From: Sneathiella aquimaris
GTDB lineage: Bacteria; Pseudomonadota; Alphaproteobacteria; Sneathiellales; Sneathiellaceae
Assembly (NCBI RefSeq): GCF_026409565.1
Contig: NZ_CP112881.1
Coordinates: forward strand, 1,783,501 to 1,847,500
Length of the DNA: 64,000 nt
Direction of reading: 5' to 3'
Part shown: positions 20,971-23,635 of the stretch, one piece after another
Numbering within the stretch: the stretch's first letter is position 1
Layout of the letters: each line of letters opens with the position of its first letter
Position numbers and translations under genes: made by a program
The notes under the pieces: model-generated
Told to the model about the DNA's origin: nothing
The model's input: only the letters and a program-made list of their open reading frames with translations
Databases searched by the model: none

Positions 20971-21003
20971 AAAGGCGCGGATTACCTGTTTTTTCGCGCC
21001 TTT
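20971..21003 (+). terminator. Terminator of the aminotransferase gene
   Basis: The stem AAAGGCGCG/CGCGCCTTT (20971-20979 and 20995-21003) is perfect. The right arm lies inside the last codons of the opposing DUF6065 gene. The T-run is in the loop rather than after it, so strength is uncertain. Confidence 0.55.
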
Positions 21004-21773
21004 CGAACTTCTGCCGCATAGTGTCCTCTCTTGCGGTTAAATGCATCTCCCGGATCGATGACAGTTTGTTGAAAAGAGTGCCAGTCGGCGTCTTCAATAT
21101 CGCTCAGGCTGGATACCAGCTCAAAGTTTTTCAACGCTCTTTCGTCATAGGTTTGTCGCATTAAAGGCTGCACTTGAAACAAGGGCATTTCCCGTTTGAT
21201 CAGGATCGGCACATCTGTTTTCGTTAGGCGCAAGTTTGTAAATAATGGACCAAACCAGCGATCTGTTTCAATAATACCTTCGAAATGTTCATAATTCTGG
21301 CTACCCGGAAGGTTGGCAGGGGCGCGCACTAAGAGTGACCAATCGGGCGCAGTCTGGGCGATCAGGCCGCTCCAGATTTTAAGAACTCCTGGTTCGGGTG
21401 CAGCAGAAAGAAATGGCGGGCAATAGCCGCGCACTTTGTCCGGGCAATGCTGGTTGAACTGGTGTTCGAAATCAGGATATTGTGCTGCATTCAGTAAATA
21501 CCAATCATCGGTCTCGCCATACTGCCAGTAAATATCAGACCCATCCCATAAGACGTGAAAATCCATCGGCGCAAAAACATACCAGCCAAACGCAGAGGCG
21601 GATGTCATCGGTTCGCAAAACCGAAAGGCTCTTGTCGGGATCAAGCCGCCAGCAGATCGATCCGCTCTTTGAGGGTTAGGGCAGTCAGGGATCAGCCGGA
21701 AGAATTTGATAATTTGGCCCGGTGCCATTAAAGGCACCGGATCAATATGTTTTTCAGCCTGTTCAAGAGGCAT
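20982..21773 (-). CDS. DUF6065 family protein, partner of the repeat peptide
   Basis: A 263-residue soluble protein. It carries hallmarks I associate with DUF6065: RFCEPMTSASAFGWYVFAP, the aromatic WDGSDIYWQY, then IWSGLIAQTAPDWSLLVRAP and FEGIIETD. It has no signal peptide or membrane helix and is rich in Trp, Phe and Pro. The biochemical function of the family is not known to me. It lies 20 bases downstream of the 57-residue repeat peptide gene on the same strand, so the two are very likely co-transcribed. A GGAAGAG site precedes the ATG. A role as modifying or binding enzyme for the peptide is inference. Confidence 0.72.
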   Translation of the reverse strand: MPLEQAEKHIDPVPLMAPGQIIKFFRLIPDCPNPQRADRSAGGLIPTRAFRFCEPMTSASAFGWYVFAPMDFHVLWDGSDIYWQYGETDDWYLLNAAQYPDFEHQFNQHCPDKVRGYCPPFLSAAPEPGVLKIWSGLIAQTAPDWSLLVRAPANLPGSQNYEHFEGIIETDRWFGPLFTNLRLTKTDVPILIKREMPLFQVQPLMRQTYDERALKNFELVSSLSDIEDADWHSFQQTVIDPGDAFNRKRGHYAAEVRKARKNR

Positions 21774-21793
21774 GGATACTCTTCCTATAGGCT

Positions 21794-21967
21794 TTAGATC
21801 TTAAAAGCAGGGCTCATATTTCCCAAGCGTGTTTTACCACTATCACGGGTTGCTTTAGGGGAAGTAGAAACCTTAAAGGCAGGGCTCATGTTACCAAGGC
21901 GTACTTTTCCTGTATCTTTGGTTGCAGAGGATTGCGGGGCAATTTTTTTAATCATTTCGGTTTTCAT
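21794..21967 (-). CDS. Repeat peptide (57 aa) with two RLGNMSPAFK units, possible RiPP precursor
   Basis: A 57-residue basic peptide. The first 14 residues (MKTEMIKKIAPQSS) look like a leader. Two repeats follow with a period of 24 residues: residues 15-33 and 39-57 are about 80% identical, sharing T-[KR]-D-[TS]-G-K-x-RLGNMSPAFK-[VI], joined by a short Ser/Thr/Pro/Lys linker. There is no Cys, no signal peptide and no membrane helix. ATG 21967 has a strong AAAGGAGAG site. A longer frame reaching 22129 has no ribosome site. The leader-plus-repeated-core layout and the adjacent DUF6065 gene resemble RiPP precursors, but this is inference; no cleavage site is proven. I do not recognise a named family. 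Confidence 0.7.
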   Translation of the reverse strand: MKTEMIKKIAPQSSATKDTGKVRLGNMSPAFKVSTSPKATRDSGKTRLGNMSPAFKI

Positions 21968-22128
21968 AATTACTCTCCTTTGGTTCGGTGAAAGGATCAT
22001 AAAAGTGTCGTTTCGCCGTTGTAAACAGAAGGTGAAACATTCTGATTTTTCGGCGTGAAGTGGGGTAAAACCGGTATCAACAGAAAACGAATTAACGAAA
22101 ATTGGATGAAGAAGATTAGAATAAAACA

Positions 22129-22171
22129 AATACTTTAAATTATATAAATCAATTATTTAATTTAAAGTATT
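22129..22171. repeat. 14-bp perfect AT-rich inverted repeat
   Basis: AATACTTTAAATTA (22129-22142) and TAATTTAAAGTATT (22158-22171) are exact reverse complements around a 15-base spacer. They lie about 160 bases upstream of the peptide ATG on the minus strand. It may be an operator or a weak transcription stop; no T-run suggests a terminator. Confidence 0.55.
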
Positions 22172-22575
22172 AATGTGAAAAATTGATTGTTTGGGCGATG
22201 TGTAGAATTGAATTCTATTAATTCTACCATTTTTTATGAAGCTGAAAAATGCGACTTTATGGTGTTAAATGAGTTCCATATTCTTTATTTTAGAGCTCTC
22301 ATAATACTGGTTTACGGCAGGATAAGTTTCACCTTTTTGGCATATTTTGTCAGGATTATATACGGTAAAATACGTGCCCAAAAAATACAAACAATTTTCC
22401 TAAAATTATCGATAATGATACGTATGATACACCACTGTAACATTTCGTATAAGTTGTATTTCTTTAAGAATGAACAGGAAGATTAGGCAGGAAAGTAAAA
22501 AACAGAAGCGAACACCGCTACTTACAAATCTGAATTAAGTAGTATGCCTTCTTAATAGGTTATCAGTGAAAGAAA

Positions 22576-22612
22576 CTGATTAAACCGAATCCCGTAGATC
22601 CGGTTTAATCAG
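22576..22612 (-). terminator. Terminator after the threonine dehydratase gene
   Basis: CTGATTAAACCG (22576-22587) and CGGTTTAATCAG (22601-22612) form a perfect 12-bp stem with a 13-base loop. On the minus strand a TTTCTTTC run follows, placed about 30 bases after the stop of the upstream gene. Confidence 0.7.
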
Positions 22613-22642: not shown

Positions 22643-23635
22643 TTATCGTTCGTTATTTAGAATGCTGGCGAAGAGCAAAGGATCGACATTGCCACCAGAT
22701 GCGACAGCCACGGCCGTTTTGCCTTTCAAATCCAGTTTTCCGCTTAAATAAGCGGCTAAGGCAACAACGCCGCCGGGTTCGACGACGATCTTCAGATAAT
22801 TAAAGGCAACGCGCATGGCTTCCGTTACTTCCGCCTCGGTTAATACAAGACCACCGGTCACGTCCTTCTGAAGGATTGGAAAGGTAATGTCCCCCGGAGT
22901 GGGGGTCAGGATGGCATCACAAAGACTGCGGTGGTCACCAGTGTTACTTAGTTGTTTGCCTGCGGTTAATGACCGGGTCGTATCGTCAAAAAACTCTGGT
23001 TCGCAGGCGAATAACTGTGTTTTAGGGCTCAGATGTTTGATGGCAAGAGAGACGCCAGCCATCATGCCGCCGCCGCCGCATGGCGCGCAAACATAGTCAG
23101 GGGTCAGGTTATGACTTGCCAGCTGCTGGATGATCTCCAACCCAACGGTCCCTTGTCCGGAAATTACATCTACGTTGTCATAGGGGCGAATAAGGGTGAG
23201 GTTATTGTCGTCAGCGATTTTTTCCCCGATGGCTTCTCTGGATTCTGTATATCGGTCATATGTGATGACCTCCGCGCCATAACCTCGTGTATTTTCCACT
23301 TTGATGACGGGCGTATCCTTGGGCATCAGGATCGTTGCTTTTGTTCCCAGAAGGCGGGCAGCCAAAGCAATGCCTTGAGCGTGATTACCACTTGAAAACG
23401 CAAAAACGCCATTGGCCAGTTGGTCTTGGTTTAAGGATGATATCGCGTTATAGGCACCTCTGAACTTGAACGAGCCTGTATGCTGCAATGTTTCGCATTT
23501 AACAAATAGTCGACCACCCAGTTTTTCGTTCAGGGCAAGTGACTCGATCAGAGGTGTTTTTACGGCAATCGGCGCAAGCCTCTCTTTGGCTTGCTGAATA
23601 GAATGATAGGACGGTGCTGAGCTAATCTGTGTCAC
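22643..23635 (-). CDS. Threonine/serine dehydratase (PLP, fold type II)
   Basis: A 330-residue single-domain PLP lyase. The Schiff-base lysine is Lys57 (TGSFKFRGA), followed by the SSGNHAQG phosphate-binding loop and a CGGGGMMAG loop. It lacks the C-terminal ACT regulatory domain of IlvA, so it is of the catabolic TdcB/serine-racemase-like kind. Substrate (threonine, serine or hydroxy-aspartate) cannot be fixed by sequence alone. The start is GTG with no clear ribosome site and no better in-frame choice. It stands alone. Confidence 0.85.
   Translation of the reverse strand: MTQISSAPSYHSIQQAKERLAPIAVKTPLIESLALNEKLGGRLFVKCETLQHTGSFKFRGAYNAISSLNQDQLANGVFAFSSGNHAQGIALAARLLGTKATILMPKDTPVIKVENTRGYGAEVITYDRYTESREAIGEKIADDNNLTLIRPYDNVDVISGQGTVGLEIIQQLASHNLTPDYVCAPCGGGGMMAGVSLAIKHLSPKTQLFACEPEFFDDTTRSLTAGKQLSNTGDHRSLCDAILTPTPGDITFPILQKDVTGGLVLTEAEVTEAMRVAFNYLKIVVEPGGVVALAAYLSGKLDLKGKTAVAVASGGNVDPLLFASILNNER

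Follow-up and report, generated by a model that had tools for sequence, protein, structure and literature searches.

Three kinds of described system come closest to the gene pair analyzed here. In multi-core RiPPs a ribosomal peptide of repeated cores is likewise encoded before a candidate enzyme gene, split borosins consist of a TP_methylase and a separate precursor, and in Stl-dUTPase complexes a dUTPase fold is likewise bound by a protein partner (PDB titles). Stl, by contrast, acts as a repressor rather than being a repeat peptide, and it is not known to be genetically paired with dUTPase in a comparable manner. The pair studied here lies in a 64,000-nucleotide stretch of Sneathiella aquimaris DNA (the window) and joins a tandem-repeat peptide ORF to a gene coding a DUF6065 protein. 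The open-licence literature searched yielded no paper on DUF6065, PF19541 or the core GNMSPAF, and none among the papers listed that concerns the pair; the analysis points to an undescribed peptide-handling system.

The peptide ORF (positions 21794–21967, minus strand) runs from an ATG at 21967 to the stop codon ending at 21794. It codes for 57 residues, MKTEMIKKIAPQSSATKDTGKVRLGNMSPAFKVSTSPKATRDSGKTRLGNMSPAFKI, made up of two 24-residue units. Unit 1, KDTGKVRLGNMSPAFKV, is encoded at 21869–21919 and unit 2, RDSGKTRLGNMSPAFKI, at 21797–21847, both on the minus strand; the sequence of one single repeat unit is VRLGNMSPAFKV. The two units of period 24 claimed in the original prediction are confirmed by the translation and by the DNA underneath, a 54-nt direct repeat spaced 72 nt start-to-start with 76% identity. 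The strong ribosome site that it reported is borne out by a good Shine-Dalgarno, AAAGGAGAG (GGAGAG at 21973–21978, minus strand, from sequence), and so is the placement of the peptide 20 bases before a DUF6065 gene of the same strand: a gap of 20 nt separates the peptide stop from the ATG of the ORF at 20982–21773 (minus strand), which scores 50.7 bits against PF19541 at a cut-off of 26.6, the Pfam gathering score. It codes for a DUF6065 protein of a repeat-associated branch with a predicted dUTPase fold. The frame bearing the peptide has the highest internal repeat score among the 441 window ORFs of 40–250 aa (11/12 identical, period 24), the runner-up being a low-complexity ORF with 10/12. 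The peptide belongs to no family above cut-off in Pfam or NCBIfam, its matches to PF21107 (E 0.096) and PpiC (E 0.027) being at chance level. The top repeat score in the window, together with recurrence beside DUF6065 in other species, argues that the peptide is more than a chance frame.

Besides the window's own genome, 8 of 23 further Sneathiella genomes gave a match in a PF19541 search, and a search with the peptide only retrieved the same 9 of 24 genomes. Both genes are thus present in nine genomes and neither in 15, some of which are incomplete assemblies. In all nine loci an ORF of 2–7 units is found directly upstream of DUF6065 on the same strand, and the pair keeps a constant chromosomal place beside a threonine-dehydratase-like gene (9/9 genomes), surrounded by ordinary chromosomal genes. 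The residues G, N, M, P and F are invariant in the 33 Sneathiella units and the preceding Asp is present in 32 of them. At the invariant residues each of the four Gly codons and each of the four Pro codons is used, a full codon variety that implies selection at the protein level; judged from these sequences, the units are under purifying selection in Sneathiella. The core Ser is encoded by AGY in 32/32 codons and never by TCN, consistent with one ancestral unit as origin. The short basic start noted in the original prediction is seen in the window peptide, but its sequence is not conserved even within the genus. One DUF6065 frame (G004, L023 4648–5907) extends past the usual carboxyl terminus into a convergent gene, unlike the other eight. 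Inspection of the called ORFs neighbouring the Sneathiella pairs revealed no other maturation enzyme, protease or transporter.

The threonine-dehydratase-like gene upstream of the pair (22643–23635, assigned by sequence) is followed by a terminator-like hairpin (22576–22612, minus strand; the scan gave 3 sites versus 2.1 expected by chance), and the pair therefore probably has its own promoter. A region of 579–736 nt free of called genes precedes the peptide start codon in the nine Sneathiella genomes and aligns poorly across loci except for one block. A block TGTTACA-N4-TGTATCA (22410–22442, minus strand), listed as one of four similar 7-mers, may be a regulatory site; it features a direct-repeat spacing of ~11 nt, and in 8/9 Sneathiella loci its distance to the peptide start codon is near-constant (−475 to −509). 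The ~450 nt between this block and the peptide could contain a long leader or an RNA. Rfam gave no match at the window locus. The upstream non-coding region also carries an AT-rich inverted repeat with 19-nt arms (22129–22171).

The pairing extends well beyond the genus. In Alphaproteobacteria, a tandem-repeat ORF of 2–11 units is found directly upstream of DUF6065, on the same strand, in 25 of the 25 testable loci of the branch (20 of a first set and five from later genome draws). The conservation of the peptide next to DUF6065 in other genomes, on which the original prediction had made itself depend, is thus seen in every testable locus. Two Rhizobium plasmids code for a DUF6065 protein with 41% identity preceded by a “hypothetical protein” with three V-H-I-A-N-K-S-P-x-F units. 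In family f66, 9 of 75 genomes contribute 10 loci, each with an upstream repeat ORF of 4–11 units; these are mostly of the type LGM[ML]APAF with basic linkers. Others have MGG[ML]SPLF and acidic linkers, and one has KVGGMQPTF repeating at a period of 29 residues. Folding of four f66 loci predicts a hairpin in the gap that separates the repeat ORF from DUF6065 (z −5.4, −6.1, −1.6 and −7.5), far exceeding shuffles in three of them; no such hairpin is predicted in the window. Plasmid matches of an f66 peptide in Treponema and Caballeronia (H3/H4) have no annotated DUF6065 in the flanking stretches, although the second of these records carries hardly any annotation.

In the first 20 loci the units share the core V-x-[LIMV]-G-x-[ML]-[SAQ]-P-x-F, with P and F in 103/103 units and G in 100/103 (counted without the second Rhizobium plasmid, whose peptide is identical), and linkers and copy number vary around this short conserved core. 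The later genome draws added six loci of the branch (G841, two in G989, two in G1002, and G1004), all above 200 bits (alignment A9). The contig of G1004 (L242) begins inside the gene and this locus was excluded from the pairing test; a tandem-repeat ORF lies directly upstream in the five others. Their units are clearly diverged: DPGxVRLGDAMITAxF, RLGSGCITAEFPPL, RLGSGCITGGFPPL, RLGSGSITAAFPPL and, in G841, TGGG[VL]ISPxVATH. A pattern based on P-x-F recovered 0/5 of these loci, which were found via a repeat-scored listing of upstream ORFs where the only other frames with a full repeat score were those of the same DNA. The units of one locus (L232) lack the P-x-F core and those of the other four have a diverged core. 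Since all five out-of-sample loci are paired despite diverged units, the pairing holds, at the level of sequence, more firmly than any single motif, the P-x-F core being limited to the first 20 loci.

Repeat-associated DUF6065 proteins form one clade (20/20 rows, support 100/98; 17 of them plus 4 new members, 96/98). The branch is rare, with 4/385 and 7/389 genomes of the class and the window's own only in 398 of the phylum (overlapping draws). It is tied to repeat ORFs, unlike other PF19541 members: a 900-nt scan of other DUF6065 loci (21 distinct bacterial and 75 viral with 60 different carboxyl termini, 5 of 80 viral loci being dropped as near copies) detected no such repeat ORF, with the qualification that some viral genes are at contig ends and that weak repeats would escape. 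Matches in that scan were low-complexity, antisense or other frames, or RTX- or collagen-like genes. Canonical matches below 50 bits from the later draws (G083, G142, G204, G329, G867, G932, G973, G1003) are not counted in the branch, and four of them (L237, L238, L239 and L243) lie outside the repeat-ORF inspection. The branch differs from canonical DUF6065 by an insertion of ~30 residues, within window residues 79–128, and by absence of the carboxyl terminal H-x-x-K-[LI] tail found in many canonical proteins. The two profiles are clearly related (Prob 99, E 5.6e-18, single comparison), and residues R39, C53, P55, W76, G78, N154, E169, T179 and N180 (window numbering) are invariant across 51 DUF6065 sequences, which suggests a retained site.

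The possibility that the repeats replace in trans the canonical tail, H-x-x-K-[LI]-x-L-x-x-F, was rejected: the unit PSSM scored best in the tail in 4 of 45 proteins where ~6 are expected (those with an anchorable tail among 69 canonical proteins), and the spacing of the unit core differs from that of the tail by four residues. Mobility of the pair by phages or plasmids was likewise rejected. Phage records have no match to the window DUF6065 or to the Rhizobium peptide, viral contigs have none to the repeat-associated branch, and the only plasmid matches at pair level are the two Rhizobium plasmids. Canonical DUF6065 is encoded in 117 IMG/VR stretches, and several viral proteins end in a Cys-rich PCYDNCC tail. 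The 87 viral neighbours scanned with Pfam, out of 204 listed, include 8 DNA polymerase B, 4 dUTPase and 4 DCD proteins. On symbiotic plasmids of S. medicae and S. meliloti a canonical DUF6065 gene is positioned 9 nt after an autotransporter gene (L205 2160–5441, L206 4449–5444), and in Ochrobactrum (L201) it follows a gene for a collagen-like repeat protein. Proteins of this kind in the vicinity of canonical DUF6065, whether RTX, collagen-like or autotransporter, were discarded as candidates when fuller flanks gave mixed neighbours.

DUF6065 of both kinds is predicted to have a dUTPase fold. The AlphaFold model of the window protein (pLDDT 82, pTM 0.75) matches dUTPases with Z 11.4 (121 residues aligned, rmsd 4.5) and Z 11.4 (119 aligned, rmsd 2.8), and that of one canonical DUF6065 (pLDDT 95, pTM 0.88) with Z 10.4 (125 aligned, rmsd 4.8); models without a clear match typically reach Z 7 to 8. 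For both models all VIA-align matches shown are dUTPases by title, and Foldseek lists dUTPase titles on all rows except 6h4c_G, a phage-island repressor. A comparison with predicted structures of viral proteins ranks uncharacterised phage proteins first and dUTP diphosphatases next. The match spans about half of each DUF6065 model, and a helical carboxyl terminal part extends beyond the dUTPase-matched core. The kinship comes from the predicted fold only; the proposal that DUF6065 is a dUTPase recognisable by sequence was rejected. Comparison with dUTPase profiles is not significant (hhalign Prob 0.1–0.3), hmmscan of the window protein gives PF19541 only with no match to PF00692, and a profile search of PDB sequences with DUF6065 yields nothing better than E 0.1, to unrelated proteins. 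The best hhalign alignment sets GIVETDW over the dUTPase motif GTIDADYRG. The motif residues R-S-G and D-x-D-Y are not retained, motif 3 Asp-x-Asp-Tyr reading Glu-Thr-Asp-Arg in the window protein (the alignment leaves out loci L181, with stop codons, and L185). We know of no dUTPase fold among RiPP enzymes, nor of a dUTPase-fold protein that modifies peptides.

The charges of the two partners provide indirect support for their contact. In one f66 genus the peptide carries +16 to +21 per 100 residues and DUF6065 a net charge of −2 to −6, in sister f66 genera the values are −14 to −18 and +7 to +9, and in Rhizobium −6 and +3. The correlation reaches rho −0.83 over 19 loci and rho −1 over five lineage means (exact one-sided p 0.0083), in a post hoc test conceived after seeing the sequences and with few lineages; within Sneathiella it is not significant (rho −0.32). 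The G004 locus was left out because its DUF6065 frame overruns the usual carboxyl terminus (fragment +12.5 and −5). Four later loci have peptides at +0.7, +1.5, +6.7 and +15.1 per 100 and DUF6065 at −3, −1, −1 and −5; with them rho weakens to −0.80, p 0.007 (nine groups, two from one genome). The second copy of G989 (L245), whose DUF6065 is cut by the contig end, is not among these later loci. Control neighbours in f66 (8 BTAD proteins at −8 to −15, 5 CBS proteins at −1 to −4) display no sign change like that of DUF6065, and the BTAD charge shift, where present, has the opposite direction to that of DUF6065. These opposite charge swaps between lineages favour a putative contact between peptide and DUF6065, two partners that look mutually adapted in their evolution. 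Overall, the data best support direct recognition of each unit by DUF6065.

What recognition leads to is suggested by the relatives and neighbours of the branch. The nearest DUF6065 outside it is found on Sinorhizobium medicae plasmids and joins the branch with support 100/99; it is its probable sister, a position read from a midpoint-rooted tree with a long branch (tree-program warning) and a single locus type. Its gene shares a 4-nt overlap with a gene of the TP_methylase family. The product of the latter has 15 PDB matches (best E 2.5e-5), all of them dbOphM/OphA-type peptide N-methyltransferases. Around them are coded an amidohydrolase, SDR-like and aldo/keto-reductase-like proteins, an annotated S8 peptidase and, upstream, a 104-residue protein scoring 36.9 bits with the Os1348 NHLP clan (cut-off 40) and 27.7 with Frankia_peptide (cut-off 48). 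The cluster is borosin-like. In the second S. medicae plasmid the TP_methylase is annotated shorter, with an 85.6% match in two places of the record. Elsewhere in the plasmid collection, the cluster TP_methylase of plasmids pMl1 (L199/L200) finds no match. Transporters recur next to the pair: EamA genes adjoin DUF6065 on the same strand in G1002b and G832b and on the opposite strand in G989a and G1002a, and an MFS gene overlaps DUF6065 on one Rhizobium plasmid, two hypothetical genes being found there on the other. The MFS-looking gene after DUF6065 of G841 has no Pfam match.

In our working model the repeat ORF and the DUF6065 gene would form one unit, the ORF giving a multi-copy substrate or ligand whose copies the dUTPase-fold protein would each recognise, via V-x-[LIMV]-G-x-[ML]-[SAQ]-P-x-F in the first 20 loci. 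DUF6065 would then most likely modify the units, as a RiPP maturation enzyme acts on a multi-core precursor; in some lineages a small EamA or MFS transporter might export the product and a BTAD-TPR regulator might govern its production. We hold this model, modification included, at close to evenly balanced. The case for covalent modification is an inference that draws on the enzyme-like fold, the transporters and the borosin-like relative, and it is the probable sister DUF6065 in the borosin-like cluster that keeps it standing. Against it weigh the missing conserved leader, the lack of a further maturation enzyme, protease or transporter among the called ORFs at the Sneathiella pairs, and the diverged cores of the later loci.

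The chief competing explanation is binding without modification. The repeats would be a multivalent partner that tethers or caps DUF6065 trimers (as scaffold, storage, inhibitor or switch) with no covalent change, a reading that is possible, if somewhat doubtful. It survives owing to the charge compensation between the partners. The short conserved core with variable linkers and copy number also agrees with it, since binding motifs, more typically than RiPP cores, are conserved rather than variable. The f66 intergenic hairpin could yield many peptides per DUF6065, and protein partners such as Stl are known, from PDB titles, to target dUTPases. However, this explanation accounts neither for the relative in a borosin cluster nor for the recurring transporters.

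The repeats may alternatively be precursors of a peptide signal read by a BTAD-TPR regulator, RRNPP-like, with DUF6065 maturing or sequestering the signal. In 10/10 f66 loci the repeat ORF has a BTAD-TPR type gene beside it, directly upstream in nine and divergent in the tenth (Pfam-checked in 4/10, one BTAD only; the others by near-identical amino termini), and one is present at both G1002 loci. No such gene is seen alongside the Sneathiella and Rhizobium pairs, however, and we regard the signal explanation as improbable. In G832, three BTAD-type paralogues in a row (L174 9020–14504, two Pfam-checked) lie in divergent orientation to the second repeat/DUF6065 pair. More improbable still is that DUF6065 acts on nucleotides as a dUTPase or dCTP-deaminase-like enzyme tuned by the repeats, in nucleotide metabolism or phage defence: the fold of both models, the DNA polymerase B and dUTPase proteins among its viral neighbours and the GIVETDW alignment speak for it, but PF00692 is unmatched, the profile comparison is not significant, the R-S-G and D-x-D-Y residues are lost and the Sneathiella pair sits constantly among ordinary chromosomal genes.

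Returning to modification of the units by DUF6065, the original prediction of a RiPP layout is retained for the repeated units and the adjacent partner gene, and not for a conserved leader. Amino termini vary within Sneathiella, and in at least three f66 loci (G832a, G834, G766) the first unit begins 1–3 residues after the start codon, as chosen by us. The usual leader-core precursor is not supported by these sequences. A stricter version of the model, which we entertain tentatively, is a new class of leaderless multi-core peptides that a dUTPase-fold enzyme would modify, perhaps in a nucleotide-dependent way on the S/A-P-x-F core, before export; DUF6065 would then be, to our knowledge, the first known peptide-modifying dUTPase-fold family. 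More generally, if the units are modified, peptide maturation would gain a new enzyme fold and genome mining a handle, namely a tandem-repeat ORF directly before this DUF6065 branch. The analysis gives a context and a predicted fold to PF19541, a family without assigned function that is common in viral contigs, and the pair offers a compact two-gene system for direct testing of peptide recognition by a dUTPase-like protein.

The pair is filed here as RiPP-like because the working model is RiPP-like; if the model is wrong, it belongs to no known kind. With the dUTPase/dCTP-deaminase superfamily (PF00692, PF22769) DUF6065 has a predicted fold alike, whereas a sequence match and the signature motifs are absent. 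Compared to multi-core RiPPs the pair has neither a conserved leader nor a known RiPP enzyme, and its core is conserved, not variable. From split borosins the Sneathiella pair differs in its small proteins, which are unlike, and in that inspection of the called ORFs adjacent to the nine pairs recognised no TP_methylase, whereas on the S. medicae plasmids a cluster of this kind does contain the probable sister DUF6065.
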